This document shows, in pieces, positions 7,239-40,182 of a stretch of 47,786 nucleotides of DNA (positions are counted from its first letter, which is position 1; every line of letters starts with the position of its first letter). Source of the DNA: a virus; the IMG/VR virus record IMGVR_UViG_3300032893_000083, positions 1 to 47,786 of that record; one strand, 5' to 3'. Position numbers and translations under genes: made by a program. The notes beneath the pieces are model-generated. The model saw only the letters and a list, made by a program, of their open reading frames with translations. It was not told the origin of the DNA and ran no database searches.

Positions 7239-7427
7239 TCACCCGAAGAAGCGTATCGTCTTGGTCTGGTTCTTTGCAGGATGCTGGGAATGCTGATTCC
7301 CGTCGCCATCCATCTCTTCCAAGTCCTTGGTCAGATACGACATGGAGCCTTCCAGACTGACCGGCAGTGGGCCTTCGACGCCGCCGGGGAATAGCCCCGT
7401 CACCTTGTAGGTTTCTTTAGCGGCCAT
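7239..7427 (-). CDS. Small hypothetical protein of the head-tail module
   Basis: 62 residues, MAAKETYKVTGLFPGG at the start, acidic middle (TKDLEEMDGDGN) and basic end. GGAGAA lies 7 bases before the ATG, and the gene fits the 200-base gap between two structural genes. No family is recognised. Confidence 0.65.
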   Translation of the reverse strand: MAAKETYKVTGLFPGGVEGPLPVSLEGSMSYLTKDLEEMDGDGNQHSQHPAKNQTKTIRFFG

Positions 7428-7436
7428 AATTTCTCC

Positions 7437-13026: not shown

Positions 13027-13036
13027 GGGCTATCTC

Positions 13037-24970: not shown

Positions 24971-25450
24971 ATGGCTGAATTTATCATTAAAAGCTACTTG
25001 GACTTGGACGCGGAATTGTACCGCTGTGAAGCTGCGAGTCAAAAAGCAGCGGTTGAACAAGCAGTCAATCGCGGCGCGGACCTGTACGGCGCGGACCTGT
25101 ACGGCGCGGACCTGCGCGGCGCGAACTTGTGCGGCGCGAACCTGTGCGACGCGAACTTGCGCGACGCGAACCTGTACGGCGCGAACCTGTACGGCGCGAA
25201 CCTATACGGCGCGAAGCTGTGCGGCGCGAACCTGTGCGGCGCGAAAGGCATCCATACCATAGAGGGCGGCAAAGACTCGCGTAATTACGAGTTTCGCGCT
25301 ATCGAACTGCCCGACGGCTGGCGTATCAGTGCCGGTTGCCGATTTTTCACGCTCGACAAAAGCAAAAAGCACTGGCGCAATAACCCCGAATGCGCGGCCA
25401 TCGTCGCCAAGCTGATTGCTGAAACCGAAAAGCTGGATGCGGAGGGCTGA
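24971..25450 (+). CDS. Pentapeptide-repeat protein
   Basis: 159 residues. Residues about 36-90 are eleven consecutive pentapeptides of the A-(D/N/K)-L-x-x type ([15 protein letters not shown]), predicted to fold as a right-handed beta-helix. The C-terminal 65 residues contain [20 protein letters not shown], a small domain often attached to such repeats in phages. Known members (Qnr, MfpA) mimic DNA and protect or inhibit gyrase; most phage members have no known role. The repeats are nearly identical 15-bp units in DNA, suggesting recent expansion. Confidence 0.85.
25074..25245 (+). repeat. Tandem 15-bp repeats inside the pentapeptide gene
   Basis: About eleven units close to GGCGCGAACCTGTAC with changes mainly at two codons. 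Copy number could vary between isolates by slippage. Confidence 0.75.
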
Positions 25451-27907: not shown

Positions 27908-28058
27908 ACTGACCAAGACGGAACGGCTGTGGAAGATCGCAAGATTGATGGCAATGCACCACGATTGGGATTGGCTAAAAAAGACGGTCAGTTTTTCCGA
28001 GAAGCATTATATGGAAATCTACGATCTCGCCCGCGAGCCAAGGAGGAAAGGCAAATGA
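27894..28058 (+). CDS. Small basic helical protein
   Basis: 54 residues from the ATG at 27894 with AAGGAG 8 bases upstream. Basic, Trp-rich helix (LTKTERLWKIARLMAMHHDW). Ends with an ATGA overlap into the next gene. Confidence 0.57.
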   Translation: MRKAKLTKTERLWKIARLMAMHHDWDWLKKTVSFSEKHYMEIYDLAREPRRKGK

Positions 28059-28285
28059 CACACGCTGAGTATAATCAAGAGCGCGGACAAGGCTTACCAC
28101 ATTCGCATTGTTGTAAGAAACACAATAAAGCGGCAATGCAAGCCCACGCTCGGCTCTTTGCCGAGGCGATTGGATTCGTTGAGTATGTCGAAGGCTTGTG
28201 CGCCTGTAAAGAGTATGATTGCATATCTACCGAAGCGCGCAAATTTTTACGCCAATGGAACAGCGAAATGGAGATAGGCAAATGA
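28055..28285 (+). CDS. Small Cys/His-containing protein
   Basis: 76 residues from the ATG at 28055. SHCCKKHNKA and GLCACKEYDC give five Cys and nearby His, a possible metal site between helices. AGGAGGAAAGGCAA upstream. Coupled to both neighbours by ATGA. Confidence 0.58.
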   Translation: MTHAEYNQERGQGLPHSHCCKKHNKAAMQAHARLFAEAIGFVEYVEGLCACKEYDCISTEARKFLRQWNSEMEIGK

Positions 28286-28743
28286 CCCTCGAACAACTCT
28301 GCGCGAAGATTGAGGAAGCGGCGGCGAAGGCTACGGAACTACCGTGGGAAACGCACCATCATTCTCATTGCAATGGCGAGTATTGGTCCAGTATCGGTCA
28401 TCATGGACGCGGCCCGATTACCGATATTGTCGGTGCAGAAGGTAACAAGACAGAGTATTTTCAACCCGCCGCAGGAATGAAGCATTTAGTTACGCCAGTC
28501 GAGGAACAAAAAGCCAACGCCGCCTACATCGTCCTCGCCGCCAACCTTCTCCCGGTGTTGCTGAAGGTGGTGACGGCACAAGCAATACGAATCGCCTGTC
28601 TACGAACTGCTCTCAATGAGGAAAAAATCAAGGTACTTCCGCACTTAAATTTGATTGCCGACGCGACATTGCAAAACGACGATGAGTTAGCTGCCCGCAT
28701 CGACGAGCTACTCAAGGAAGCTGGCGATGGACTTGGATCTTGA
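28282..28743 (+). CDS. Hypothetical protein, Ead/Ea22-like pattern
   Basis: 153 residues from the ATG at 28282 (ATGA overlap). The pattern ALP/TELPWETHHHSHCNGEYW, then NAAYIVLAANLLPVLL and an acidic helix (LIADATLQNDDELAARIDEL) resembles the ead/Ea22-type proteins of lambdoid phages, in which A-A-A-N-P is common. The match is by general pattern only. Confidence 0.57.
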   Translation: MTLEQLCAKIEEAAAKATELPWETHHHSHCNGEYWSSIGHHGRGPITDIVGAEGNKTEYFQPAAGMKHLVTPVEEQKANAAYIVLAANLLPVLLKVVTAQAIRIACLRTALNEEKIKVLPHLNLIADATLQNDDELAARIDELLKEAGDGLGS

Positions 28744-28867
28744 ACCGCTCAACGAGGCAATCAAAAAATTGGAAAAAGCATATCTGCCTTCGATAATTTA
28801 CGGAGTCACTTCCATATGCTGTTTTTGGCTGAAGGCCTTCGCGATGCCGTCGCGTGGCAGGCGTTAG
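28727..28867 (+). CDS. Possible 46-residue protein
   Basis: ATG at 28727 overlapping the upstream end by 17 bases. MDLDLEPLNEAIKKLEKAYL, then a short hydrophobic part with two Cys, basic end. Competes with the frame starting at 28816; one of the two may be spurious. Confidence 0.35.
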   Translation: MDLDLEPLNEAIKKLEKAYLPSIIYGVTSICCFWLKAFAMPSRGRR

Positions 28868-28986
28868 CGATGCTGAATTGTTGTTTTAAGTTGAGTGGTG
28901 ATTACGCAAACGAACCAGCAGAACCCGCATGGCTTAATCCCGGAGAAGGCCCGCATACTGGCCCAGCGAAGGAGGCTGGCGATTAG
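28816..28986 (+). CDS. Possible 56-residue protein, last gene of the operon
   Basis: ATG at 28816 with GGAG 10 bases upstream. MLFLAEGLRDAVAWQALAML, then CC and a Pro/Glu-rich tail ending PAKEAGD. It overlaps the previous frame by 52 bases. Confidence 0.38.
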   Translation: MLFLAEGLRDAVAWQALAMLNCCFKLSGDYANEPAEPAWLNPGEGPHTGPAKEAGD

Positions 28987-29009
28987 GAGACCAGCCTTTG
29001 TGAACTTTT

Positions 29010-29121
29010 CCGGGATCGGTCCCACGAGAGGAAAGCGGTATAGCGGTTTTGACGCCCGCTAACTCCGACCGCTGAATGGAACTTAGCTGGCGTAGCAGCA
29101 AGAAGTTCCAGCCGATCCCGG
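29010..29121. ncRNA. Predicted multi-stem RNA structure at a convergent boundary
   Basis: A closing stem CCGGGATCGG (29010-29019)/CCGATCCCGG (29112-29121) holds two inner arms: AGCGGT (29034-29039)/ACCGCT (29068-29073), itself with AGCGG/CCCGCT, and TGGAACTT (29077-29084)/AAGTTCCA (29103-29110), whose tip has GCTG/CAGC. A T-rich run (TTTCTTAAATTT) follows on the plus strand. It lies between convergent operons, so the simplest role is a bidirectional terminator; a stable ncRNA is possible. Confidence 0.6.
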
Positions 29122-29125
29122 TTTC

Positions 29126-29506
29126 TTAAATTTGAGGGTAGTCCGGCAGTATCCGCCGCACCGCGCTTGGCTCGATGCCCAGCACCCCGCACACCCAATG
29201 GAACGTGAAGGGTGCGTCGCTGTCGCTGGTGAACCAGCCGCGCACCTCTTCCCTGCGCCTCCGCCAGTGTTCCTCGTTAGTCGGCAAGTAGCGCCCCGGC
29301 TTCATCGTTACGAATGCCCGCGTCCAGTCGTCTATCGCCTGCTGCAAGACAGCAGACACTAGCTCGCCTTCCGGCGGCAGTTCCCGATGCTGGCGTAAGT
29401 CCCGGTATTGGCTCAAGGTAAGACAATCCGGCGCTGAGGCGGTTAGGTCGTAGATGTCGCCTTGCCAATAGCTGGCCCGGCTCGATTCTGCGTTTGAGGG
29501 CCTCAT
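29126..29506 (-). CDS. HTH-containing regulatory protein candidate
   Basis: 126 residues from the ATG at 29506 (ATGA overlap). The C-terminus FTFHWVCGVLGIEPSAVRRI has the pattern of a helix-turn-helix of the type aVc..LGl.p.aVR...L seen in phage and bacterial DNA-binding proteins. The middle (EGELVSAVLQQAIDDWTRAF) is helical. Last gene of the minus replication block; probably regulates or aids replication, as inferred from context. Confidence 0.62.
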   Translation of the reverse strand: MRPSNAESSRASYWQGDIYDLTASAPDCLTLSQYRDLRQHRELPPEGELVSAVLQQAIDDWTRAFVTMKPGRYLPTNEEHWRRRREEVRGWFTSDSDAPFTFHWVCGVLGIEPSAVRRILPDYPQI

Positions 29507-30150
29507 TTCATCACCGCCAGCCACGCCGCCGTTGCCGTGTCCATCGCCTCTTGCACCGCCCCCAGCGTCTCCGCTGTGACCGTCCCATGCTCGCTTGCTT
29601 CGTCCGCCGCTCCCGCTACTACCGCCGCCGCGTTGCCGAGAAGGTCCGAGAGGTGTTCCAGCCGCTCCGCCAGCCCTTCGCCAACCATGCGCTTTGGCCC
29701 TTGGGAGCCATTGAGAGCGATTTTTGCCCCGTTCCCGACCGTCGGGCTTGCCTCGTTGCCTAGAAGCCGCTTTACTTCGGCCCGAATAGTTTGACGGTTC
29801 ATCTCGCCCTTTAACGCCCGCGTGATAATCGCATCGCATTCGTCTTTCCGTTTTGCCCGCACAAGCACGGCCATCGACTGATACCACGTCCACGGGATAT
29901 CGACGGAGCGTTCTTCGGGCGGGAACGCACGGGAAGTCGTGAGCATATTTTGAACCGTGCTGTAAGAATATTGGGTTTCAAATTCCCCGATAATCTGCCA
30001 CGCTGGTTCTCCAAAGTCGCGGTAGCCTCGATCCATCCAATCGCCAATCATCCACGGCAGTTGGCCGTGTAACCTAACAGCCCGCCGTAAGCCTTCCGCC
30101 CAATCTTCAAACGTCAGCCGCTCCGGTATCGCTAATGGATTTGCGTTCAT
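29503..30150 (-). CDS. HTH-like regulatory or partition-type protein
   Basis: 215 residues. LTFEDWAEGLRRAVRLHGQL, then WMIGDWMDRGYRDFGEPAWQ and YSYSTVQNMLTTSRAFPPEE match a pattern of phage and actinobacterial-type regulators with this W-x-x-G-D-W signature followed by an HTH. The C-terminal 70 residues are Ala/Glu-rich and helical. It overlaps the nuclease gene upstream and the HTH gene downstream by 4 bases. Copy 7 of the 14-bp motif encodes I-T-R-A-L. Confidence 0.6.
   Translation of the reverse strand: MNANPLAIPERLTFEDWAEGLRRAVRLHGQLPWMIGDWMDRGYRDFGEPAWQIIGEFETQYSYSTVQNMLTTSRAFPPEERSVDIPWTWYQSMAVLVRAKRKDECDAIITRALKGEMNRQTIRAEVKRLLGNEASPTVGNGAKIALNGSQGPKRMVGEGLAERLEHLSDLLGNAAAVVAGAADEASEHGTVTAETLGAVQEAMDTATAAWLAVMK
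29812..29825 (+). repeat. Dispersed 14-bp motif, copy 7
   Basis: TAACGCCCGCGTGA inside the minus-strand gene; coding strand encodes T-R-A-L, as in copies 1 and 2. Confidence 0.7.
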
Positions 30151-30518
30151 CCCCTCAAAGCCTCCTCCACTTCCCGCATTACGCCGTCCACGTCTGTCTT
30201 TACTTGTTGATTCGTGAAGCGTAGCGTCCGCCAGCCGTCCACTTGCGCCCGCGTGTCCCGCCGCCGGTCCTTGCCCCGTTGCCGTCGATGCACGCCACCG
30301 TCGACCTCGATAATCAGCCGCCGCCCCTCATGCGCGAAGTCCGCAATTAGCTGCCATGCGCCGCCATTCTTCGTGCGCCCTTGAATTGGATGCTGGAACT
30401 TGAAGCCGAGCGCCGTCATTGCCTCAAGCAACTGCGCCTCCTGCTTTGTGGGCGCAAGCCTCATCCGAGCCGCGTTGGCGTCCAGAAAGACGCGGGTGTC
30501 GGCGGCTGGGCGTCTCAT
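30147..30518 (-). CDS. DUF559-type endonuclease
   Basis: 123 residues with the Vsr/DUF559 pattern: LAPTKQEAQLLEAMTALGFK (Glu27), LIADFAHEGRRLIIEVDGG (Asp60, Glu71-Val-Asp73) and HRRQ...D..R with His77, then GWRTLRFTNQQV. These residues form a PD-(D/E)XK-like metal site. Such phage enzymes may nick or cut DNA in recombination or exclusion; the substrate is unknown. Overlaps both neighbours by 4 bases. Confidence 0.78.
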   Translation of the reverse strand: MRRPAADTRVFLDANAARMRLAPTKQEAQLLEAMTALGFKFQHPIQGRTKNGGAWQLIADFAHEGRRLIIEVDGGVHRRQRGKDRRRDTRAQVDGWRTLRFTNQQVKTDVDGVMREVEEALRG

Positions 30519-30769
30519 GCGAATTCCTTCATTACGATCTCTGTTTCACTGACAATCGCAGCTTCAACTTGTTCTGGAGTGTAACTTGAATGCGGCCATA
30601 ACTGAGAATTGCCTTCGTGACATTCGCAAACACATGTTGAACGAGCGCGACACGGACAATGAATTTCACCACGCCGCTTTCCTGTACAGATAAAACCGAA
30701 AAAACGGCTTTCAGCTATACCGCGCGGACCTCCCATTAATAACAATATGCCTAAATCTGGAAATAGCAT
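30515..30769 (-). CDS. Cys-rich hypothetical protein
   Basis: 84 residues; a start at 30736 (MGGPRGI) is also possible. CPCRARSTCVCECHEG has five Cys and a His, a metal-binding loop, followed by a helix (TPEQVEAAIVSETEIVMKEF). It overlaps the nuclease gene. AT-richer than neighbours. Confidence 0.5.
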   Translation of the reverse strand: MLFPDLGILLLMGGPRGIAESRFFGFICTGKRRGEIHCPCRARSTCVCECHEGNSQLWPHSSYTPEQVEAAIVSETEIVMKEFA

Positions 30770-30808
30770 CGCTCTCTTCTATGTTTCCCGTATCTCGATG
30801 TCCCTCAA

Positions 30809-31015
30809 TCAGGGATTGCTCTCTAGTTCGTCGATAGCCTTCATCACCTTCTCGATAAATTCGTCGTCTTCTGAATCCACGGAGATGGTATTTCCGCCTT
30901 CGAGCCAAATCACGACTTTGTTTTCTTGCCGCCCAATCCCCATCACAGCGGACGCGCGAAATGCGAGATTCGCAGGTTGCTTACCTAGCCGATTCATTAT
31001 GAAGTTACTCATCAT
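30809..31015 (-). CDS. Small hypothetical protein
   Basis: 68 residues: strand pair (NKVVIWLEGGNTISVDSED) and an acidic helix (DEFIEKVMKAIDELESNP). The ATG overlaps the upstream stop region (4 bases). No family is recognised. Confidence 0.6.
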   Translation of the reverse strand: MMSNFIMNRLGKQPANLAFRASAVMGIGRQENKVVIWLEGGNTISVDSEDDEFIEKVMKAIDELESNP

Positions 31016-31326
31016 GTCTCCTTAATCTCAATGCCCCACAAGGCGAGCATCAGTTTTTTCTTGAGCTTATACTCAGGCGTTTTGAAGCCCTTGCAGTCCT
31101 CCACGATCATTTTACCGTTTTCAATATAGGCAAAATCCGCCCGATATTTGCCTATCGACACGCCATTCACTTTCAACTCGGATTCTGGTTGCTGGACAAG
31201 AGCATGAATCTCCCCCGCTTTTTCCAGCAAACTCAACTCCCCGCAGCGCCGGGCCTCTTTTTTTGAAGCATGGATATGGCCCCCGCCGCACTCGGTACGC
31301 TTCGCCCGGTATTTGTTCGGTTTCAT
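31012..31326 (-). CDS. DUF1064-type PD-(D/E)XK nuclease
   Basis: 104 residues from the ATG at 31326 (ATGA overlap). KYRAKRTE at the start, HASKKEARR (19-27), Q-P (46-47), KYRADFAYIENGKMIVEDCK with Asp64 and Asp77-Cys-Lys79 as the nuclease core, then YKLKKKLMLALWGIEI. This is the order of motifs of the DUF1064 phage family, thought to be nucleases acting in DNA processing. It sits in a replication block, which fits. Confidence 0.8.
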   Translation of the reverse strand: MKPNKYRAKRTECGGGHIHASKKEARRCGELSLLEKAGEIHALVQQPESELKVNGVSIGKYRADFAYIENGKMIVEDCKGFKTPEYKLKKKLMLALWGIEIKET

Positions 31327-31589
31327 TCGCAATCCCCCCCAGTGCCTACAGTCAGGTCATGGAGTAAGGTGTACAATGCTCCAATCAAGTGCATCCGATT
31401 ACTAGTTTTGGATTCCGTCCAACGGCAATGCGTGCTATCTCGATCAACCCAGCAAATCACAAGCGAAGTGCAGCCGGTCTTCTCGATTTCCTGAAGTGCC
31501 TCGGTCAACAATTCCTTGGCCTGCCCCGCAATCTGTATCGGTGTGCATTCGGCCTTTGAGGAAATTAAAGTCGGTTTCTTGTTGTTCAT
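31323..31589 (-). CDS. Small hypothetical protein
   Basis: 88 residues from the ATG at 31589 (ATGA overlap with the zinc-finger gene). Helix (AGQAKELLTEALQEIEKTGC) and beta hairpin (TSLVICWVDRDSTHCRW). No family is recognised. Confidence 0.6.
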   Translation of the reverse strand: MNNKKPTLISSKAECTPIQIAGQAKELLTEALQEIEKTGCTSLVICWVDRDSTHCRWTESKTSNRMHLIGALYTLLHDLTVGTGGDCE

Positions 31590-31759
31590 GCCGCCACCTT
31601 CGCCACGCATTCCTGTACGCATTCCATCCGCGCCGTCAATTCGCCCGGCGATCGCCATCGCTTGCACCGCTTGCACTTCCAGCGGAGCGCGCGCCCTTCC
31701 CAGCGGGCCAGCTTCCGCCCGCCTTTCAAGAAACGGTGACAGTGATCGCACCAGTTCAC
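31586..31759 (-). CDS. Small zinc-finger protein
   Basis: 57 residues from a GTG at 31759 (GAGGATAAGC upstream). MNWCDHCHRFLKGG and WKCKRCKRW give four Cys in two CxxC pairs around a basic centre, a typical small zinc finger. It ends with an ATGA overlap into the next gene. Probably binds DNA or RNA. Confidence 0.58.
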   Translation of the reverse strand: MNWCDHCHRFLKGGRKLARWEGRALRWKCKRCKRWRSPGELTARMECVQECVAKVAA

Positions 31760-31989
31760 CGCTTATCCTCAATCGAAAAGCCTTGGCACTCTTGAAAGGG
31801 GTGTTTTGGCCTCCCTCCCCTAGCACTTGGGGTCTGGCACCCTTCTTGGCACTCTTTAAGTAAGTCCTTATTATTATTATATTTTTTATACATATCTAAG
31901 GGTGCCATCAAGGGTGCCAAAGTGTAAGGGTGCCACCTAAGGGTGCCAACGCCATTATGTAGGAATATGGCATCCTTGGCTCCCTTCAA
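31756..31989 (-). CDS. Uncertain open frame across the iteron region
   Basis: 77 residues, repeated L-A-P/TLRW segments reflect DNA iterons, and it overlaps the 3' end of the primase-helicase gene by 35 bases. It may be the accidental translation of the origin; the 4-base overlap with the zinc-finger gene keeps it open. Confidence 0.25.
   Translation of the reverse strand: MKGAKDAIFLHNGVGTLRWHPYTLAPLMAPLDMYKKYNNNKDLLKECQEGCQTPSARGGRPKHPFQECQGFSIEDKR
31784..31948. repeat. Iteron cluster with AT-rich core, putative replication origin
   Basis: AAGGGTGCCA occurs four times as a direct repeat (31898, 31910, 31926, 31939). Its complement TGGCACCCTT (31835) and the one-base variant TGGCACTCTT (31784, 31847) flank the other side. 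Between them lies an A/T-rich stretch (31857-31897, with TTATTATTATTATATTTTTT). Direct iterons beside an AT-rich segment, next to the primase-helicase gene, match the layout of theta-type phage origins such as that of lambda. Confidence 0.6.
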
Positions 31990-33850
31990 GAAACGCTGTC
32001 CAGCCGTTACCGTCGCGCCTAACTTTGACGCCTGCCATCTTGCGCGCTCGGTTAAGGGTGCGCTCGCTGATATTCATTGCCCGCGCTCGACTTTCGAGGT
32101 CCGCTACTGGGAGGGAATCATTTCGTAGGACTTCCCTCAACCAATCGCAAGTCTGTTCGACTTTGTTCATTGTCTCAGCCTCGCCCCTAGCCGACTCCTG
32201 CTCCCGGCGCATAATCGACTCGAATTTTTCCGTGATAGGCTCATGTTTCCAAGCGATGGTAGCTGCCCCATTTTCCGCTGAGATAATCCGAAATTCCAAC
32301 CCATCCATTTCAGGGCCGATGTTATTTTTTCCTTGGAGCATCAACCGCCGTGAATGATCCTCTGGATCGCGGGTGAAAGTCCATACGATTCGCGCCGCCG
32401 CTGGAAACGCGATACTCCCCGACACCCGCTCAAGGCTATTCCCCGACGCGCCTTTGTTAAAATGCGTCACCGCAAGCACGGTTACATTGCGCCGCTCAGC
32501 TAATTCGGCCAACGGATCGAGAACGTCAATCCTAACTTCCGCATTTTTGTGAGTATCGACATTGGACATATATGCGGAGATCGGATCGACCACGATCAAT
32601 TTCGTGGCAGGGTGCCTGTCAAGTGCTTTTTCCAGTAAGGGCAAGTCTTTTCGGATACTGAATGCTCGCTTCACAATCTGGCCTGACTGATCCGCTTCTT
32701 TCGTCCGACGCACCAATCGAGTGTGACCCTTGACGGCCCCTAAGGCTTCCAATCGCGGAATAATCGTATCCGCCATTGAATCCTCAGCGGAGAAAACAAT
32801 CGAATCCGCTTTGACAGAATTCGGAATTTCGTCGGGCCAATCCGCGCCGTTTGTGAGATGCGCGACTAAATCAAGTGCGGCGAACGATTTGCCAAGGCCG
32901 GGATGCCCAACATAGAGAACAAGCTTGCCGAGCGGGATACGGTTGGGCCAAAGCCAATGTACCTCTTTTCGTTCGATCATGCTGTCTTCAAAAATCTCTA
33001 GGCCGGTTCGCTGAAGTTCAACTGCCCTTGCCTGCTCCAGCAACGCGCCCCATTCCGCCTCGAATCCGCCCGCGTCCCCTAATAGTTTCAGATGCAATTC
33101 GTTCGCATCCTTCACGCCCGCGTGAGAACACTCAACTACTCGAATCGAGCCGTCGTAGTCAAGATTTCCGAGCCTGCCGATGCAACCCTTTTCAAAAGTC
33201 TCGCCACCTTGGTCGTTTTCGCGGCAGATGATGATTTTGGGGAATAGCCGAACGTGGGGCAGTTGAAGTAGCTGGCAATTATCAGCGCCGGGGATACCAA
33301 GCGCCGCCATGCCGTGATGCCAGAATGTCAATGCGTCTGTTTCCCCTTCGCATAGGATCAGCGTGTCCTGCTCCTTGCGCCACGCCTCAAGTTGCCACAA
33401 GCCGTAGGGAACAGGCTTGCCGTCGCCCTTGTTCCACAAAAACCGCTTGTCGCCGCTCAGCGCAAGCCGTAATCGCTGCCGGGGCGCACGTTGACCGCTC
33501 ATCAAAAGATAGTGAAAAACAACCGCTCCCTTGTCTTGCGTAACTCCCATTTTCGAGAGAAATGCTAGATCGAAACCTTTTGCTTCGGCTAATTCGTCTA
33601 TCGTGAAAGTAGTGGCGCTGTGTCCATTACGTTGAACGTAAAACAGATCGTCAAGCTTGAGGCCCATCGCGCCCGTAATATCTTCGGGAGCGCAGCCAGC
33701 GAAACATTTCAGAAGAATGCGATCGTTGGCAGGCGAGACATGGAGTGCCTGAGTGTTGGTATTGTTATGGCCGGGGCAAAACGCGAGCTTGGTATTGCCG
33801 CCAGCCGATTTTACGCCTTTCAGGCGACCTAGAAATTGCTCAAATTGCAC
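31955..33850 (-). CDS. Primase-helicase with zinc, TOPRIM, RecA-like and HTH parts
   Basis: 631 residues. Residues 1-60: zinc-ribbon CHC2-like (CPGH 25-28, KCFAGC 48-53). About 150-250: TOPRIM (LILCEGETDAL 164-174, GIPGADN 185-191). About 300-520: RecA-type ATPase with Walker A GHPGLGKS (315-322), Walker B LIVVDPISAY (418-427) and a later VTHFNKG sensor. About 555-631: HTH (LESRARAMNISERTLNRARK). It makes primers and unwinds DNA at the fork. It probably acts together with the iteron origin at its 3' end. It overlaps the gene upstream by 11 bases. Confidence 0.9.
   Translation of the reverse strand: MQFEQFLGRLKGVKSAGGNTKLAFCPGHNNTNTQALHVSPANDRILLKCFAGCAPEDITGAMGLKLDDLFYVQRNGHSATTFTIDELAEAKGFDLAFLSKMGVTQDKGAVVFHYLLMSGQRAPRQRLRLALSGDKRFLWNKGDGKPVPYGLWQLEAWRKEQDTLILCEGETDALTFWHHGMAALGIPGADNCQLLQLPHVRLFPKIIICRENDQGGETFEKGCIGRLGNLDYDGSIRVVECSHAGVKDANELHLKLLGDAGGFEAEWGALLEQARAVELQRTGLEIFEDSMIERKEVHWLWPNRIPLGKLVLYVGHPGLGKSFAALDLVAHLTNGADWPDEIPNSVKADSIVFSAEDSMADTIIPRLEALGAVKGHTRLVRRTKEADQSGQIVKRAFSIRKDLPLLEKALDRHPATKLIVVDPISAYMSNVDTHKNAEVRIDVLDPLAELAERRNVTVLAVTHFNKGASGNSLERVSGSIAFPAAARIVWTFTRDPEDHSRRLMLQGKNNIGPEMDGLEFRIISAENGAATIAWKHEPITEKFESIMRREQESARGEAETMNKVEQTCDWLREVLRNDSLPVADLESRARAMNISERTLNRARKMAGVKVRRDGNGWTAFLEGSQGCHIPT
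33112..33125 (+). repeat. Dispersed 14-bp motif, copy 8
   Basis: TCACGCCCGCGTGA inside the primase-helicase gene, where it encodes S-H-A-G-V in the TOPRIM-following part (different frame from copies 1, 2 and 7). Confidence 0.7.
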
Positions 33851-34169
33851 CGCCGCTCCGCTCCTGCCAATCCCGCAACCACTTTTCCTTCATCAACCCC
33901 AAGAGCGCCGCGTAGTGCTGTCTGATCGCGCACCTTACCCAATCCGGGGCATCTTGTCCTACCACGATTCTGTTGTCTCGTAATCTCACGTCATAATCCG
34001 CATACCAAATGGTCGCTAAAATAGACTCCATCGGCCACAGGTCGTAAGTCTGCTCTGGCGTCAAGTCGCCTTTCGGCTTGTCGATAGCCTTTTCAAAGGC
34101 GGCAATCGCGCCGACACATATCGTGCGTAAAATATCGGGGGAAATATGATTTAACTTGCGCATAGACAC
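33840..34169 (-). CDS. Small hypothetical protein upstream of the primase
   Basis: 109 residues from a GTG at 34169 (AGGA 7 bases upstream; ATG at 34163 is an alternative). Helical (LRTICVGAIAAFEKAIDKPK, then WVRCAIRQHYAALLGLMKEK). First gene after a strong minus-strand promoter. Likely a replication cofactor by context, no family recognised. Confidence 0.62.
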   Translation of the reverse strand: MSMRKLNHISPDILRTICVGAIAAFEKAIDKPKGDLTPEQTYDLWPMESILATIWYADYDVRLRDNRIVVGQDAPDWVRCAIRQHYAALLGLMKEKWLRDWQERSGGAI

Positions 34170-34263
34170 CGAAAAATCCTGTCCGGCGGGATCGTTGGGT
34201 GTCTGGCAACAACCCCAACCGGGACAGGCAACAAGCCAACGGGCCGTCGCCCGCCGCGCATAT

Positions 34264-34293
34264 ATTCTAGCTTCCCTGCCTTCCCGCTGTCAA
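34264..34293 (-). promoter_or_regulatory. Strong sigma70-type promoter of the replication operon
   Basis: Minus strand TTGACA (34288-34293), 18 bases, TAGAAT (34264-34269; 5 of 6). About 90 bases lie between it and the first gene, containing GC-rich sequence that could fold. It probably drives the primase operon. Confidence 0.7.
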
Positions 34294-34348
34294 GAGAGGA
34301 ACCGCCCACCATACCCACCCGCCAAAATGTATTTTAGCGAGATGGGCG

Positions 34349-34729
34349 TTAGGAAGCTAGAAGCCAATCGATGAGTTCGGAGGCATGAGCAGGGTTCTTT
34401 ACGCTGCCTTCTTCCATCCCATTTTTCGGATCAACTCGAAGAAATTCGACAGCTTCGGGAGAAACAAAGAAAGACAACTCTCTGTTCTTGCGCCATTTGA
34501 TTTGTAGGCTTCCGTCCGATCCAGCGATAATAAGGGGCAACGGGAGATCGTCTCGCTTGAGAGAATTAGCGACTTGGTTCGCTAAGGTCACAATGTGGCT
34601 GGTAGGTCGGTGCGGTGCGAAACTATCTGCGCCCTCAGGCAACTCTCGCTGGAGCTTAGCAAGCTGGCTTTGGAAGTATGCCCGCCAATCACCGTCGTTT
34701 CTATGCCGCGGTAGCGTGAGGCTAGCCAT
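34349..34729 (-). CDS. Hypothetical protein with a GSDGSLQIKW domain
   Basis: 126 residues. LPLPLIIAGSDGSLQIKWRK, then ELSFFVSPEAVEFLRVD forms a small alpha/beta domain that I have seen in bacterial proteins of unknown function. The N-terminus is helical. It stands alone upstream of the replication promoter. No function is assigned. Confidence 0.6.
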   Translation of the reverse strand: MASLTLPRHRNDGDWRAYFQSQLAKLQRELPEGADSFAPHRPTSHIVTLANQVANSLKRDDLPLPLIIAGSDGSLQIKWRKNRELSFFVSPEAVEFLRVDPKNGMEEGSVKNPAHASELIDWLLAS

Positions 34730-34810
34730 GATTTGGACGTTAGTCCCGCGACTGGTCTAAAGATAGCTTATGACAAAACATTTCACCTGCCGCGTCATAC
34801 GTTGCACTCC

Positions 34811-34881
34811 TCTTTGCCATCTTTTCTTCATGCAAAGAGATGGCCTAGATACCCTACCTTGGCGGGCGGGTCTAGGCCATC
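34811..34881 (+). other. Two inverted repeats before the tRNA gene
   Basis: TCTTTGC (34811)/GCAAAGA (34832-34838), then GATGGCCTAGA (34839-34849)/TCTAGGCCATC (34871-34881): 7- and 11-bp arms, with GCCATC also able to pair with GATGGC. They lie immediately before the second tRNA in a 330-base stretch without a protein gene (34730-35055). A tRNA leader, processing site or terminator is possible. Confidence 0.5.
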
Positions 34882-34890
34882 AAAGGTGCG

Positions 34891-34961
34891 GTGAGCGTGG
34901 GCTAACGGTAAGTCATTCGGCCTGTACCCGAAGGACGCCGGTTCGACTCCGGTCGCTCACC
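34891..34961 (+). tRNA. tRNA-like gene, anticodon UGU (Thr) with unusual C33
   Basis: Cloverleaf of 70 bases: acceptor GTGAGCG/CGCTCAC (7 perfect pairs), D arm GGCT/AGTC, anticodon stem TTCGG/CCGAA (5 perfect pairs) with loop CCTGTAC, a 4-base variable loop, T arm GCCGG/CCGGT with loop TTCGACT. Base 33 is C where nearly all tRNAs have U. No CCA is encoded (CTTG follows). A G at 34890 could extend the acceptor by one pair. Confidence 0.68.
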
Positions 34962-35055
34962 TTGTGCACGCCCAATAAATTCACGTGCTTTTCTTTTATA
35001 GCAGGGCGCCGAAATAATGACAACCGTCAAGAGAAAACCGCAGTCTCGTCCATTG

Positions 35056-35259
35056 CTATTTCCTTGCTGAAACTTGATCTTCACGTAGAAAGTTTCGTCC
35101 GATGTTGGCAAGGCCATCGCCTAATGCCTCTGCGCAGCGTCTCTCAAACGCAAATACCGCTTCATCTATCGGATCGGGCGATGTTTCGGTTGGGCATAGA
35201 TGGGGACCGCCGATTTGAAACACCCCCGATGATGGCCTTGAAAAAGTAATTGTACTCAT
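35056..35259 (-). CDS. Small hypothetical protein after the nuclease gene
   Basis: 67 residues from the ATG at 35259, which overlaps the nuclease stop (ATGA). N-terminal beta part, C-terminal helix (DEAVFAFERRCAEALGDGLA). Coupled to the recombination genes; no family is recognised. Confidence 0.6.
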   Translation of the reverse strand: MSTITFSRPSSGVFQIGGPHLCPTETSPDPIDEAVFAFERRCAEALGDGLANIGRNFLREDQVSARK

Positions 35260-35927
35260 CCCCAATACTCCTTGAGCTTTTTGTCATCGTCATACGCATC
35301 ACGGAACCGGCAAAACTGGCCCCATGCTGTTGCTATTGCCGGGTGGTCCGCCGCGAAGTGCCGATGCGTGAAGTCCCCGCCAGCCTTGCCGAATCTCACG
35401 ATATGCACTCCACCAGTAAGTATGCGGTTTGGGTGATTCTCTTGGTACAGATTGAGGTAGGCGGCGCACTGGATTAGGTAATCGTAATAGATGCCTTTGC
35501 TTGACTTCCAATCCAGCAGGCAGAGCTTATCGTCAATCATGGCAATGGCATCGGGCGTCCCGCCAAAGCATACTGTTTCCGATACCAGCGACATCTCTTG
35601 TTCCACTACGGTCAGGTGCGATTGGCGCTCCCACAGCAGGAAGGATTCATACGCCTGATTCGCCATCTTAGCCATGTCGTCGGTGAACGTGGCGGGCGGC
35701 TTGGGCATCTCGGTTCCATTGATGTGCGCCTCTACCAGCGCATGGCAGAACGTGCCAACGTCGGCGGCTTCGTCACGCTTCTCGTAGAGCGTAGCGGCCC
35801 CGGATTGGCCCTGTTTGAAGGCCCATTGAAGCAAACCGCCAGAATCCTTCCAGCGTCCAATGATGGTGGTGCAACCGGGAACTTTGGTCCCGTCTTTGAG
35901 TTTGTACCCTGCTCTCGGTGTCGGCAT
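35256..35927 (-). CDS. PD-(D/E)XK exonuclease, RecB/Cas4-like
   Basis: 223 residues. It shows the ordered motifs of this superfamily: GTFCHALVE (58-66, His62), GGTPDAI (122-128, Asp126), LLDWKSSKG (137-145, Asp139 and Lys141) and QCAAYLNLY (153-161, Gln153 and Tyr157). Next to an SSB-like protein and an ERF annealing protein it is probably the 5'-3' exonuclease of a phage single-strand annealing recombination set. GAGGAGACTACA precedes the ATG, directly after copy 9 of the 14-bp motif. Confidence 0.85.
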   Translation of the reverse strand: MPTPRAGYKLKDGTKVPGCTTIIGRWKDSGGLLQWAFKQGQSGAATLYEKRDEAADVGTFCHALVEAHINGTEMPKPPATFTDDMAKMANQAYESFLLWERQSHLTVVEQEMSLVSETVCFGGTPDAIAMIDDKLCLLDWKSSKGIYYDYLIQCAAYLNLYQENHPNRILTGGVHIVRFGKAGGDFTHRHFAADHPAIATAWGQFCRFRDAYDDDKKLKEYWG

Positions 35928-35939
35928 TGTAGTCTCCTC

Positions 35940-35953
35940 TCACGCGGGCGTTA
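35940..35953 (-). repeat. Dispersed 14-bp motif, copy 9
   Basis: Coding strand TAACGCCCGCGTGA; its TAA is the stop of the SSB-like gene, and the ribosome site of the exonuclease gene follows directly. Confidence 0.72.
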
Positions 35954-36184
35954 GAACGGAATATCGTCATCGTCAACCGAGCGACCGCTGCTTTGCTGAT
36001 CGTCCTTTGGCCTGATTTTGAACGCGACGTACTTTTCGTGGTCCTTTGTCTCGTTGGTCCAGCCGCTCAACCAATACTCCACGCCATCGACTGTCATGGA
36101 GCCGGTTGAATCGGGGTCTTTTGGGCCGCGCTTCTTCTTGTTCTTAAACAGCGACCCGCTCATGTCCTTCTGCTGATAAGCCAT
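35951..36184 (-). CDS. SSB-like protein with DDDIPF tail
   Basis: 77 residues from the ATG at 36184 (GAGGAGGAAACG upstream). MAYQQKDMSGSLFKNKKKRG, then SMTVDGVEYWLSGWTNE and KYVAFKIRP, a small OB-like beta pattern known in phage genomes. The C-terminus DDDDIPF matches the acidic hexapeptide tail by which bacterial SSB binds partner proteins. It may bind single-stranded DNA or recruit host SSB partners. It lies between the ERF and exonuclease genes. Confidence 0.7.
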   Translation of the reverse strand: MAYQQKDMSGSLFKNKKKRGPKDPDSTGSMTVDGVEYWLSGWTNETKDHEKYVAFKIRPKDDQQSSGRSVDDDDIPF

Positions 36185-36198
36185 CGTTTCCTCCTCTA

Positions 36199-36987
36199 TC
36201 AAAAATCAATATCCGGCTGTTCTGGCGGTTGCGTCACTCCTGCCGCTGTCCCGCTCTTGGCAAATTCTTCAATCTCCCGTATCAACAACTTGCCAGACCC
36301 CATCGACAGCTTTTTAGCCGCGCCGCCTAGCGTGGTTTCTGCTAGGGCTTCCACACAGGTAGGGTCGGCGTCCATCTCTTTCAAGCGGCCCCGGAACCAC
36401 TTCGGGCCTTCCTCATCGCCCATTGCCGCCCGTAGCTTTTGCACCAGCGTAGAGGCTTCCTTGGCCGTGAGCCGCCCTATCTGACTGGCGGGTGTCTGGC
36501 TGATGCCGCTATGCTTGGCGCGGCCCTTGTCGGTATCGTGCGGCGCGTCGGCTTCGGGATCATCGCCTACCCGCATCATTAGGGGCTGGCTCAAGGCGTA
36601 CTTGAGGGCATTAGTCATGGCCTTCGCACTGGCCTTGTCGCCGCTGTCCCGACCCTCTCCGATGCTTGCCACACTCAATCGTTCCCCGCTGTCGCCGTCG
36701 CAAAAGACGTAATCCAGCGTCACGATGATACGGGCATCCGTGCGGACTTCACCCCGGCTGTTTGTGGCTTCAATCGTACTGGCAGCGAACGCAAGATTCT
36801 CGCGCGATAGAATCACGTTGACTGCCGCCAGCCGGTCGCCAATCTCCCCCGCAATATCTTCGGCGCGCAGGTAGTCGTAGTTCTGGTGGGTATTGCGCCC
36901 TTTCTTTTCGATGTTCTTCAATTCGCGCCGTATGCTCGCGAGCTTCTTGATCAGCCCGACCGGCACGGCGTTATCTTTGTCTGCCAT
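36199..36987 (-). CDS. erf: ERF-family single-strand annealing protein
   Basis: 262 residues. NYDYLRAEDI (36-45) and SIGEGRDSGDKASAKAMTNA, then LKYAL (108-132) are hallmark stretches of the ERF (essential recombination function) superfamily. After about 150 residues a less conserved linker and a helical C-terminal part follow, ending in an acidic PDIDF. ERF anneals complementary single strands in recombination and end repair. Its start overlaps the stop of the upstream gene (TAATG). Confidence 0.88.
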   Translation of the reverse strand: MADKDNAVPVGLIKKLASIRRELKNIEKKGRNTHQNYDYLRAEDIAGEIGDRLAAVNVILSRENLAFAASTIEATNSRGEVRTDARIIVTLDYVFCDGDSGERLSVASIGEGRDSGDKASAKAMTNALKYALSQPLMMRVGDDPEADAPHDTDKGRAKHSGISQTPASQIGRLTAKEASTLVQKLRAAMGDEEGPKWFRGRLKEMDADPTCVEALAETTLGGAAKKLSMGSGKLLIREIEEFAKSGTAAGVTQPPEQPDIDF

Positions 36988-37301
36988 TAATCGTTCCTCC
37001 CCGGAGCGGCATATAGAAACTGTTTTGCTGTCGGGATCACGATAGACGCCAACTCCGCTTCGAGTTGCGCCGTCCTCTTTTTCGATATTTCGATCTTCTT
37101 TTTTATTTCACGCTGTCGGCGCGTTAAACGTTCAATCTTGCGGCCCAGTCGCAGCGTTTTCTTGATAGCTGACATTGACGGCCCTTCGCAGGCTATCCGC
37201 AACTTCGCCTGCTTAATGGCCATCTCGCTACTGCGTTGTCGGCGTGCTGGATTATTCTGCCACAGCTTCCGTGCGGCCACCGACCGTTTATTGTCTGCCA
37301 T
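36987..37301 (-). CDS. Basic coiled-coil protein, first of the recombination operon
   Basis: 104 residues from the ATG at 37301 (CAGGAGGCGAACACA upstream). Basic N-terminus (RSVAARKLWQNNPARRQRSS), then a coiled coil (KIERLTRRQREIKKKIEISK). It resembles small phage DNA-binding proteins. One-base overlap with the ERF gene. Likely an accessory recombination factor or regulator. Confidence 0.62.
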   Translation of the reverse strand: MADNKRSVAARKLWQNNPARRQRSSEMAIKQAKLRIACEGPSMSAIKKTLRLGRKIERLTRRQREIKKKIEISKKRTAQLEAELASIVIPTAKQFLYAAPGRND

Positions 37302-37323
37302 TGTGTTCGCCTCCTGCCACGTC

Positions 37324-37352
37324 ACTATGGCAAATTAGTGCAGGACCGTCAA
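37324..37352 (-). promoter_or_regulatory. Minus-strand promoter candidate for the recombination operon
   Basis: Minus strand TTGACG (37347-37352), 17 bases, CATAGT (37324-37329). It lies 23 bases before the first recombination gene. It faces the plus-strand promoter at 37377, giving a divergent control region. Confidence 0.42.
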
Positions 37353-37376
37353 GCCCCGTCGTTCTGTTTGGGCCTC

Positions 37377-37405
37377 TTGACACCGCTGGTTCTTTTTGTC
37401 AAAGT
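37377..37405 (+). promoter_or_regulatory. Plus-strand promoter and operator-like repeat of the array locus
   Basis: TTGACA (37377-37382), 17 bases, CAAAGT (37400-37405; 3 of 6). TTGACA and TGTCAA (37397-37402) form inverted half-sites. The -10 ends 6 bases before the ATG at 37412, so the mRNA may be leaderless. Confidence 0.48.
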
Positions 37406-37411
37406 ACGCGC

Positions 37412-37576
37412 ATGGACAGACACACAACCTATCAGGTGAAGGTGCGGATGCCCGTCGAACTACATAAACGGCTCCGTGTATGGGGCGCGACACAGGAACC
37501 ACCTTTGAGCGTTCCAAAGGCCGCGCTCAAGTTGCTCGACAAAAACACGCCGCAAAACGGCCAGAGGGAGAAATAA
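37412..37576 (+). CDS. Arc-like ribbon-helix-helix regulator
   Basis: 54 residues. YQVKVRMPVELHKRLRVWGA, then SVPKAALKLL matches the Arc/Mnt ribbon-helix-helix pattern (strand with alternating residues, M-P-x-E-L, two helices). Such proteins are dimeric DNA-binding repressors. No ribosome site is seen, and the promoter is very near, suggesting leaderless translation. Its stop overlaps the ATG of the RAMP-like gene (TAATG), so it is probably the regulator of the array locus, acting on the inverted half-sites upstream. Confidence 0.72.
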   Translation: MDRHTTYQVKVRMPVELHKRLRVWGATQEPPLSVPKAALKLLDKNTPQNGQREK

Positions 37577-38409
37577 TGAAATCGAAAACGAAAACTGTAA
37601 CAAACGAGACGATTCAAGTTCTGCGGCTGGAAATGAGCCAACTGCATTTCTGCATTCTCGGTCAAAGCCCGCTCATCTACAATGCGGTCAGCGAGAAAGC
37701 GAAACACGAACTGCTCTATCCGGGTGGCCGCAAGAGCGCCGTCGAACGCGCGGGCAATCTCAAGCATCAACCGCTCGATGAATACCGCAATTCCACCTAC
37801 CAGTTTGCCGATGATGAACAGCCGAGCAAGCCGGTGACACGCCTATTCGTACCCGGCGCAATGTTCAAGGCGGCGATGGCGACCGCCGCACTCGACATCG
37901 AAGGGATCAAGAAGACGGAACTGGAACGGCTCTTGTGGGTCGAACCCCGTAAGATTCCGGTATTCGGGGTTCCGCAACTCTTGATGAGCATCACCCGTTC
38001 CAGCGACATCAATCGGACACCCGATGTTCGCACCCGCGCTATCCTTCCCGAATGGGCGTGTTTCGTCACGGTCAATTTCGTCCGTCCCAAGCTCAATGAG
38101 ACTTGCGTGGGCAATGTGCTGGCGAGCGCCGGAATGATTTGCGGCATTGGCGACTGGCGGCAACAGAAGGGGTCGGGCGATTATGGCCGCTTTGAAATCG
38201 TCGCCAAGGATAACCCCGCTTTCGTCCGGCTGACAAAAACTACCGGACGGGAAATTCAAGATCGCGCATTAGCTGCTCCATCAGCATTCGATTTAGAAAC
38301 AGAACGATTGCTGAATTGGTTTCAAGATGAAACGAAAAAGCGGGGGCAACATCTAAACGGCGCTACCCCAAAAGTGGACTCGGCAGGCCAAGTTACGGCT
38401 ATTGATTAA
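37576..38409 (+). CDS. RAMP/Cas7-like protein next to non-coding arrays
   Basis: 277 residues from the ATG at 37576 (TAATG with the RHH gene; AGAGGGAG upstream). After an initial strand (VLRLEMSQLHFCILGQSPLI) come RLFVPGAMFKAAMATAA (89-105), which resembles the hydrophobic-Pro-Gly-x-x-hydrophobic-Lys-x-A motif of RAMP proteins, DVRTRAILPEWACFVTVNFV (150-169) and a late glycine-rich segment, GIGDWRQQKGSGDYGRFEI (190-208), like the RAMP G-rich loop G-x-G...G-x-G/Y-G-x-F. RAMP folds (Cas7, Cas5, Csm3) bind RNA along the guide. No nuclease residues are obvious. The gene has no cas neighbours; it is followed by the period-5 array. I read it as an RNA-binding RAMP-like protein, with the function unproven. 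Confidence 0.6.
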   Translation: MKSKTKTVTNETIQVLRLEMSQLHFCILGQSPLIYNAVSEKAKHELLYPGGRKSAVERAGNLKHQPLDEYRNSTYQFADDEQPSKPVTRLFVPGAMFKAAMATAALDIEGIKKTELERLLWVEPRKIPVFGVPQLLMSITRSSDINRTPDVRTRAILPEWACFVTVNFVRPKLNETCVGNVLASAGMICGIGDWRQQKGSGDYGRFEIVAKDNPAFVRLTKTTGREIQDRALAAPSAFDLETERLLNWFQDETKKRGQHLNGATPKVDSAGQVTAID

Positions 38410-38424
38410 ATATACTTTAGCCGC

Positions 38425-38930
38425 AATGGAAAGATACGGTGCGATACGGTCGGTTGAGGTGTGTTCAGGTGAGATCGGATGAGGCCGCCTTGGTTGGGTC
38501 TGTTACGGTCCTCTCAGGTGGGTTGCGGTATGGAAAGGCCGCTTTGGACAGGACGCGCAAGGAGCGTTTAGGTGCGGATTGGTAGCGTTAGGCCGCTTTG
38601 GTTGGGTGTGAAAGATTCGGAATGGACTGCTCCGGTCTGGCCGCTCAGGATAGGACGAGTCAGGACAGGAAATGAAAGTTCTGGTAGGTCTGGCCGATAT
38701 GATCTGGAGCTTCGAGATAGGAACGGTCAGGAATGGCAGCGTATGATCGGTCGCGGTAACGCCGATATGGAGAGGCAGTGTGGGGTTTGTTCGGATGCGA
38801 TTCGGTGAGCAATGGTCGGGCTGCTGAGATGCGATTCGATGGCGTGCGGTCGAATCGGGTCGGGTAAGTTAACGCCGCTCAGGTATGGAAGATCAGGCAT
38901 GTAGCGGTCTGATTAGGTTCGGCAGGTGAT
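38425..38930 (+). repeat. Non-coding period-5 G array 1 (about 500 bp)
   Basis: No plausible gene lies between 38410 and 38947. In the first 170 bases a G recurs every fifth base: of 23 lattice positions from 38428 to 38538, 19 are G, and from 38547 to 38592 another 9 of 10, with many of these followed or preceded by a second G. The three bases between are variable. The rest keeps the same look with shifts of one or two bases. Some units recur (AGGCCGCCTTGGTTGGGT at 38482 and, with one change, at 38590), but there are no exact long repeats, spacers or palindromes. The plus strand is rich in G and poor in C. Confidence 0.8.
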
Positions 38931-38947
38931 AACAAAGGAGATCGAAA

Positions 38948-39424
38948 ATGGACAAGTTGATAATTGTAAAGGAACTGACAAGGATCGAGGATAGCGAAGG
39001 CCGCTTGACGCCCGATGCGGTAGTCAAGGCGGCGCAAAGCCCGAAAAGCCCGCTGCATCGGTTTTTCGAGTGGGACAATACAGAAGCGGCGCGGAAGTAC
39101 CGCATTGAACAGGCGCGCGAGCTAATCCGCGAAGTGCGAATCGAAATGACCGTCCACGAAAAGACGATCCAGACGGTCGCCTACGTCCGCGATCCTTCCG
39201 CGCCGCCAAACCGACAAGGTTATCGTAGCGTTGTGAAGTTGGCCGATGAACGGACCGAGGCGTGGACGGCAGTAGAAGCCGAATTTCAACGGGCGTTAGG
39301 GGCATTGCGGCGGGCGCGCGACATTGCCACGGCACTAGACTTTGCTGACGAAATCGACCGCCTGCTGACCGATTTGACTAATCTCAGCGGGACACTTGGC
39401 GAGAAAGTAAAACTCGCCGCTTAA
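38948..39424 (+). CDS. Conserved-looking phage protein between the two arrays
   Basis: 158 residues with AAAGGAGATCGAAA before the ATG. GRLTPDAVVKAAQSPKSPLH, then RFFEWDNTEAARKYRIEQAR is a pattern (L-T-P-x-A-V-V-x-A-A...S-P-L-H-x-x-F-E-W-D) that I have seen in phage proteins of unknown function. The middle is beta-type (MTVHEKTIQTVAYVRD), and the C-terminal part is helical (FQRALGALRRARDIATAL). It is flanked on both sides by the G-lattice DNA, so it may be a partner of the RAMP-like protein or the array RNA. No enzymatic residue is evident. Confidence 0.7.
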   Translation: MDKLIIVKELTRIEDSEGRLTPDAVVKAAQSPKSPLHRFFEWDNTEAARKYRIEQARELIREVRIEMTVHEKTIQTVAYVRDPSAPPNRQGYRSVVKLADERTEAWTAVEAEFQRALGALRRARDIATALDFADEIDRLLTDLTNLSGTLGEKVKLAA

Positions 39425-39440
39425 GATTGCCATTATGCAA

Positions 39441-39600
39441 TCTGGTCAGATTTGGGCCGTCAGATTAGGCAAGAATTGGAGCGGTCGGGCCGCTATGGAG
39501 TGGTATCGTGGCATAAGTTCTGGCGGGGCGTCATAAGGCCGCTGAGATGACGACAGGATGGGCGAGTTTTGGAATAGTGCGGAAAGGTAAGGACAGAAAG
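39441..39600 (+). repeat. Non-coding period-5 G array 2 (about 160 bp)
   Basis: Between two genes on the plus strand. G occupies 444, 449, 454 and 459 (added to 39000), then after a one-base shift 463, 468, 473, 478, 483, 488, 498, 503 and 508, that is 13 of 14 lattice points. The same C-poor, GG-rich style continues to the ribosome site of the next gene at 39599. Confidence 0.75.
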
Positions 39601-39611
39601 GAGAATTGACC

Positions 39612-39851
39612 ATGGTAACTGAAAGCAGGATACCGCCTGCGCCGGACCTCGGAGCGGAGTTTCGGGCGAAGGGCAACAAGGACCACGCCATCGGCAAAGC
39701 CCGCTGCGACCTGAACGTGCTGATTGGCGAGTTGGACATGGCGGCAACCGATATGATCTGGGGTGACACCCCCAAGCGGCCCATTGCCGACATCAAGGCG
39801 GATTGCGACCGGGCGTATGCGGCGTTTATGGAAACGGTCACGCGGGCGTGA
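39612..39851 (+). CDS. Small hypothetical protein
   Basis: 79 residues from the ATG at 39612 with AGGAG 8 bases upstream. Helical (KARCDLNVLIGELDMAATDM, then ADIKADCDRAYAAFMETVTR). It ends V-T-R-A-stop, written by copy 10 of the 14-bp motif. It lies directly after array 2 and may belong to the same transcript. No family is recognised. Confidence 0.65.
   Translation: MVTESRIPPAPDLGAEFRAKGNKDHAIGKARCDLNVLIGELDMAATDMIWGDTPKRPIADIKADCDRAYAAFMETVTRA
39838..39851 (+). repeat. Dispersed 14-bp motif, copy 10
   Basis: TCACGCGGGCGTGA, perfect six-base arms; its TGA is the stop codon of the gene, and the next ATG is 5 bases further on. Confidence 0.72.
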
Positions 39852-39855
39852 GACC

Positions 39856-40182
39856 ATGACCCAACTATCCCTACTCGACCGTCCCGCGCCGTCGCGCCCC
39901 CTTCACGCGCTAGCCGACCCGCCCACGTCGCGGCTGGCGGCAAAGGCGCTGGTAGCCTCTGGCGCTTGGGGCAAGCAGGCGCAAGCGGTTCTAGACCTCG
40001 TGCGGGAGCATCCGGGACTTACGGCAGGGGAGTTGGCGCTGGCGAGCGGCGGGCGTTTCGACCGCTATCAGGTGGCGCGTCGGCTGAGCGACCTGCTGGC
40101 GAAGGGAGAGGTGGAACAAGTAGGAACGCGCGCCTGCACGATCAGCGGAAAAGTGTGTGTGACATGGATAACGTGGAAATAG
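39856..40182 (+). CDS. Winged-helix protein
   Basis: 108 residues from the ATG at 39856. QAVLDLVREHPGLTAGELAL, then FDRYQVARRLSDLLAKGEVE and a beta wing (GTRACTISGKVCVTW) form the standard winged-helix pattern known from many phage proteins. It probably binds DNA as a regulator. It overlaps the next gene by 19 bases. Confidence 0.72.
   Translation: MTQLSLLDRPAPSRPLHALADPPTSRLAAKALVASGAWGKQAQAVLDLVREHPGLTAGELALASGGRFDRYQVARRLSDLLAKGEVEQVGTRACTISGKVCVTWITWK

Follow-up and report, generated by a model that had tools for sequence, protein, structure and literature searches.

A putative phage replication origin at the end of a primase-helicase gene, probably read by the winged helix of the helicase itself

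What is the role of a cluster of short repeats located at the end of a phage primase-helicase gene, and which protein reads it? The question is raised by a single virus record of 47786 bases, analyzed over its whole length (the window), that contains portal, major head, virion structural and terminase genes and also encodes an ERF annealing protein, an exonuclease and the primase-helicase. A DNA methyltransferase is found at 43715-44320 on the plus strand (phrog_757, E 4.3e-64). The preliminary description of this DNA reported seven copies of a 10-bp repeat around an A/T-rich stretch. All seven are where it placed them, namely the reverse copies at 31784 (one change), 31835 (exact) and 31847 (one change) and the four exact forward copies at 31898, 31910, 31926 and 31939, but two further reverse copies with one change (31968 and 31977) had been overlooked. 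The features of the region are the following:

31784..31986, no strand: whole repeat array, putative replication origin; nine copies with at most one change, score 7.4 against a shuffle maximum of 2.2
31784..31793, minus strand: iteron copy, one change
31835..31844, minus strand: iteron copy, exact
31847..31856, minus strand: iteron copy, one change
31857..31897, no strand: A/T-rich stretch, putative strand-opening site; 85% A+T, overlapping the 41-mer at 31855
31898..31907, plus strand: iteron copy, exact
31910..31919, plus strand: iteron copy, exact
31926..31935, plus strand: iteron copy, exact
31939..31948, plus strand: iteron copy, exact
31968..31977, minus strand: iteron copy, one change, within the last codons of the helicase gene
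31977..31986, minus strand: iteron copy, one change, again within the final helicase codons, spaced 9 bp from the copy at 31968
31756-31989: open frame across the array, 77 aa, TTG start
31955..33850, minus strand: primase-helicase gene, 631 aa, putative initiator; AAA_25, Toprim_2 and profile matches, 58% identical relative in L120
31988..32128, minus strand: C-terminal winged helix, putative iteron reader; residues about 575-621, from two predicted models
32033..32065, minus strand: putative recognition helix; residues 596-606 in the full model, H62-72 in the domain model

We scanned both strands of the 47.8-kb window for AAGGGTGCCA with at most one change and found nine copies, all within 31784-31986. 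By chance 3.2 copies would be expected, scattered across the whole window, versus the nine found within 203 bp. Read along the plus strand, three reverse copies come first; the 41-bp A/T-rich stretch follows, then the four exact forward copies and, beyond the helicase stop at 31955, the last two reverse copies. The best 10-mer array score of this 400-bp region was 7.4, against a mean of 1.64 and a maximum of 2.2 in 300 dinucleotide shuffles. When the window was divided into 600-bp tiles (n=158), just one outscored the array, a tile with a 15-bp coding repeat at 25.1 kb. This one belongs to a gene for a pentapeptide-repeat protein (159 aa, 24971-25450, plus strand), whose 15-bp DNA repeat at 25071-25245 is the strongest of the window. 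The A/T-rich stretch noticed before was borne out, the 41-mer at 31855 being the most A/T-rich of the window (88%). As to the position at the 3' end of the primase-helicase gene, the array lies partly within the gene end, but mostly just downstream of the stop at 31955. From our reading of the sequence, the next gene probably starts with the ATG at 31589, behind AAGGTGG, and most of the array would therefore be intergenic.

In Pfam the primase-helicase matched only AAA_25 (E 3.4e-29), ATPase and, weakly, Toprim_2. A profile of the gene and nine relatives, compared with solved structures, recovered RSF1010 RepA (E 3.9e-14), a DnaG-type primase (9.4e-11) and T7 gp4 (8e-5). In the full-length predicted model (mean pLDDT 74), residues about 290-540 form a RecA-type core and residues 575-621 a winged helix, and the part at about 151-241 can be read as a TOPRIM domain. 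Twinkle, T7 gp4 and RSF1010 RepA were among the best Foldseek matches of the whole chain. With the first two, the top matches of the whole model, the protein shares the order of a TOPRIM primase part and, behind it, a RecA-type ring helicase; T7 gp4 and Twinkle are not known to have a C-terminal winged-helix origin reader or an iteron origin. The likeness to RSF1010 RepA (1g8y/1olo) concerns the helicase domain, with a Foldseek TM of 0.66 over the target besides the profile match, but RepA is a separate helicase, whereas here primase, helicase and winged helix form one chain. Modelled alone, the C-terminal domain was predicted with confidence as a winged helix (core pLDDT about 95). Its Foldseek matches were generic winged helices only (best E 0.011, mostly ArsR-type repressors) and its best match in VIA was a cullin winged helix (Z 8.4), so that no initiator relative can be named for it.

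No match at the DNA level to 28000-40000 was found among phage records, and scans with single proteins gave no close relatives in viral contigs or genome contigs. A search of viral contigs with a helicase-core alignment did give relatives (70 loci). The helicase of L120 is 58% identical over residues 6-620. At the end of its gene a different repeat, TGAACCCCTT, occurs seven times, on both strands, with the same place and layout as in the window; this array begins 92 bp ahead of the stop and reaches 137 bp past it, and an A/T-rich stretch lies at +92. In L123, whose helicase is 35% identical, eight copies of TTGGCAACCT, near-identical to the window repeat, accompany A/T-rich DNA at +88. The remaining 73 of the 76 loci compared, mostly short AAA_25 proteins, had scores of 3.2 or less at the 3' end. 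Many of the short AAA_25 proteins have a C-terminal domain of this kind although no array stands at the end of their gene; the domain alone therefore does not predict one. In the SaPIbov1 origin, iterons stand on both sides of an A/T-rich stretch, and the same layout is found in the window, in L120 and in L123. The earlier reading of an iteron origin is thus supported, since place and layout are kept in the relatives while the repeat changes. It had been proposed that absence of the repeats in close relatives would speak against an origin; they are present there, with another sequence.

The surroundings of the array are less constant. By reading, it is followed by an unknown frame in the window, by short frames in L120 and by a methylase-like frame in L123. 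The L120 fragment contains, also by reading, an integrase, an HTH frame, the helicase gene and the array, and we recognised no other replication gene in it. Apart from antisense frames, only the helicase and one small gene upstream of it, among the window frames, had a match in the L120 contig. This small gene (33840-34169, minus strand) is located directly upstream of the helicase, and its weak relative, directly upstream of the helicase of L120, is found in L190 (same contig as L120) at 3250-3414, with 34% identity over 55 aa (E 4e-4). It possibly belongs to the replication module. In L123, slightly more than 2 kb behind the array, the frame at 7297-7860 (plus strand) looks by eye like the DNA-binding end of DnaA.

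Inverted repeats might also act in RNA, by forming a hairpin that, for example, ends or protects a transcript. The minus strand does fold better than 200 of 200 shuffles (z -4.58). However, the L123 copies at 5133 and 5166, either side of the A/T-rich part, share one orientation and are unable to pair across it. A hairpin would not need a row of four forward copies either, and no terminator-like site was found in the array region. We have rejected this explanation on the geometry of L123 and give it hardly any credence. An operator, where a repressor or activator bound to the repeats would control the downstream minus-strand genes or a plus-strand transcript, appears very unlikely to us, if slightly less so. 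Three promoter-like sites were found in the array region against 0.7 expected and, as these hexamers overlap the array, it may have a regulatory role, alone or besides that of an origin. On the other hand, nine sites plus an A/T-rich stretch exceed the usual operator, and the arrays stay at the primase-helicase 3' end regardless of which gene comes next.

The latter point was examined in 24 loci picked by protein likeness and not by repeats. They came from a genome scan with the window and L120 proteins (15 loci, found mainly via the N-terminal, primase-like stretch), from the top of the helicase-core scan, from L191 and from the window itself; L125 and L205, where the gene runs off the locus, were excluded. 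For each one we sought the strongest 10-mer array of the locus and asked if it fell between 250 bp before and 450 bp after the stop. It did so in 12 of 24 loci, with 1.09 expected (11 of 23 without the window), a count that is possibly favoured because, for split primase and helicase frames (L197, L199, L202, L206), the end of the helicase frame was chosen after the array positions had been seen. L127 is included in the 12 with a weak score of 3.2, and L123 had rank 1 instead of 0, being outscored by a coding Ala repeat. The repeats themselves differ (GGACAAATGG, TTGACGGCTT, TGCGAATTTA, AGTGACGGCA, AATGTAGCCA, TGTGCACGAT, AAACCGGACA and others). Across loci, the sequence of the array changes and its place is constant. 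By Pfam, arrays accompany AAA_25 (L120, L191, L206), D5 (L196, L198, L204) and DUF3987 helicases (L202 and, weakly, L203), and L199 and L201 gave no helicase match in Pfam. The primase-helicases with an array at the gene end belong, then, to three helicase families or more. A further scan added L332, L333, L337 and L338, with arrays at the end of the helicase part, only L333 being rank 0 automatically and the others recognised by reading; that of L338 falls within a frame continuing past the winged helix. A clear gene-end array was absent in the relatives L121, L122, L124, L126, L128, L335 and L339. On a Candidatus Poribacteria contig (L204, 8323-8877), more than 15 copies of TGTGCACGAT/GGTGCACGAT follow a D5-type primase-helicase.

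Which protein reads the repeats? The preliminary description had considered the proteins encoded at 29126 and 29503 and the C-terminus of the helicase. We favour the last one, because it is a predicted winged helix and because the helicase is matched in L120; the other two went unmatched in the five loci used for comparison. It is probably the helicase itself that recognises the array. It could alternatively be an origin at which another protein, of phage or host, binds the iterons and hands over the helicase. That is how RSF1010 works, where RepC binds the iterons and hands over RepA, and RepB' does the priming. The helicase part is closest in sequence to precisely this RepA, the C-terminal domain is present too in AAA_25 proteins without a gene-end array, and the genes at 29126 and 29503 provide two candidate DNA-binding proteins nearby. 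The product of the latter (29503-30150, minus strand) weakly resembles LmbU-family transcription regulators, with a score (31 of 125 bits) that falls far short of the cut-off. Nevertheless, it is the helicase gene with which the array stays in L120 and L123, while these two proteins are unmatched in the relatives compared, and arrays track the primase-helicase gene across helicase families. None of the ten nearby window frames scanned was an iteron binder of RepC type or a primase of RepB' type. A separate binder seems to us improbable, although less so than an operator.

The region 31784-31986 is very probably the replication origin of this phage. The arrays in the same place behind at least three helicase families, and the presence of the motif in or beside replication initiator genes of other phages (see below), give further support to this reading. 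The inspection of GC skew that had been suggested failed to help, since there is no sign change at 31-33 kb and the cumulative minimum falls near 38 kb; we have dropped skew as support. Unlike in a host DnaA-dependent iteron origin, no exact DnaA box (TTWTNCACA) is located at the array; the only one of the window is at 23265. The repeats, their place, their persistence with another sequence in relatives and the domains of the gene (by profile and predicted fold) are established here. We consider it likely, with good if not full confidence, that this origin is read by the C-terminal winged helix of its own primase-helicase, acting as a self-loading initiator. On either side of the A/T-rich stretch the winged helix would bind the 10-bp iterons, the protein assembled there would open this stretch, the RepA-type ring would load itself and unwind, and the primase part of the same chain would make the first primers.

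Such an origin type is known. According to PMC7581432, the Rep protein of SaPI has its origin, with short repeats, directly downstream of the helicase gene and reads them with a C-terminal domain; for Cch2 of SCCmec the same arrangement and reader are proposed, the origin being putative. Satellite initiators that combine helicase and primase activity are summarised in PMC7145576. The likeness to Rep and Cch2 is that an initiator helicase gene is directly followed by short repeats (in the window, L120 and others), which a C-terminal domain reads in those systems and probably reads here. The differences are that the Rep and Cch2 helicases have DUF927 or D5/Primase_Cterm, absent here by Pfam, where an AAA_25 RecA fold is found instead, and that the window helicase is fused to a TOPRIM primase and belongs to a phage with its own structural genes. 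It is the helicase fold and the phage setting that are new. We found no description of an AAA_25 origin among the open-licence papers searched, which does not mean that there is none. If our reading is right, one-protein initiators, which join primase, helicase and origin reader in a single chain and have the origin behind their gene, extend beyond the helicases of satellites and cassettes to the RepA-type ring helicases of phages. Besides, origins in unannotated phage contigs could in practice be located by searching the 3' ends of primase-helicase genes for repeat arrays. Repeats that change along with the recognition helix would be a natural series to study the DNA choice of such winged helices.

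We also compared the putative recognition helices with the iterons found beside them:

Window: helix ISERTLNRARK, iteron TGGCACCC
L338: helix ISERTLTRARG, iteron TGGCCCCA
L123: helix IADRTLNRAKE, iteron TGGCAACC
L120: helix ISETTLKRARW, iteron TGAACCCC
L332: helix ISTGTLRRAKE, iteron CAACTTTGCG
L333: helix LSKYAITRAKI, iteron TTGATTTC

The three iterons whose helix has R third after I have TGGC in common and the other three lack it, in a comparison of six cases, which are few and were read after the fact. This might reflect a recognition code, where the winged-helix motif S-x-R-T-x-x-R corresponds to the iteron core TGNCACCC (GGGTGNCA in the other direction) across unrelated phage initiators, and reader and array drift together. 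It would cover AAA_25 primase-helicases, whose array follows the gene, as well as O-like or HTH_36 proteins, whose array lies inside it. We advance this code tentatively, and consider it rather doubtful. If true, given that reader and array drift together, arrays would mark origins and predict the binder in unannotated phages.

Pairs of AAGGGTGNCA were reported in 93 stretches of viral contigs, and by script 80 loci held a pair. The raw count was discarded as proof of enrichment, as a control pattern (the complement) gave at least 120. Among the control matches listed, 12-bp coding repeats from a single family of tail proteins predominate; the control therefore shows that bare counts are misleading, and gives no clean background rate. 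Motif and control do differ in spacing and gene context. Among the matches listed, 21 of 98 motif pairs were spaced at 11 bp and 15 at 13 bp, against 180 of 181 control pairs at 12 bp. Of the ORFs holding or abutting the pairs, 57 were scanned in each set, out of 85 motif and 89 control candidates, the rest (mostly overlapping frames) being dropped by eye. For the motif, ten matched phrog_270 and eight phrog_1032 (replication initiation proteins), eight phrog_678 and five phrog_391 (O-like), and integrases and UvsX-like recombinases seven each, where one ORF may match several families and some, including among the ten of phrog_270, are close homologues. None of the 57 control ORFs, among the matches listed, was in a replication-initiation family.

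Pairs are found inside genes of winged-helix proteins (L030, L035, L037, L040, L045, L055, L068 and others). Among the protein sequences read, R stands in the corresponding place in L030, L037, L040, L045, L055 and L068 and not in L035, these proteins having been picked by the repeat. VapE (L010) and PrimPol-D5 (L096) helicases carry the same repeat behind their genes. The helicase of the window was found in none of seven records with pairs of AAGGGTGCCA. Where O-like and HTH_36 proteins of other viral contigs have AAGGGTGNCA inside their genes, the layout resembles that of a lambda-type origin, located within the O gene. The window shares with this type the iterons placed together with the gene of the initiator, but its array is at and behind the 3' end and the initiator would be the helicase. 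At L030 (9688-9890, also in L031), the window motif is found on both strands inside the gene of an HTH_36 protein, in a lambda-like layout. In L022 no frame of at least 210 aa lies beside the repeats within the locus. There, at 13021-13216, two reverse copies and four forward near-copies, 11 bp apart, flank about 140 bp, in what looks like another origin.
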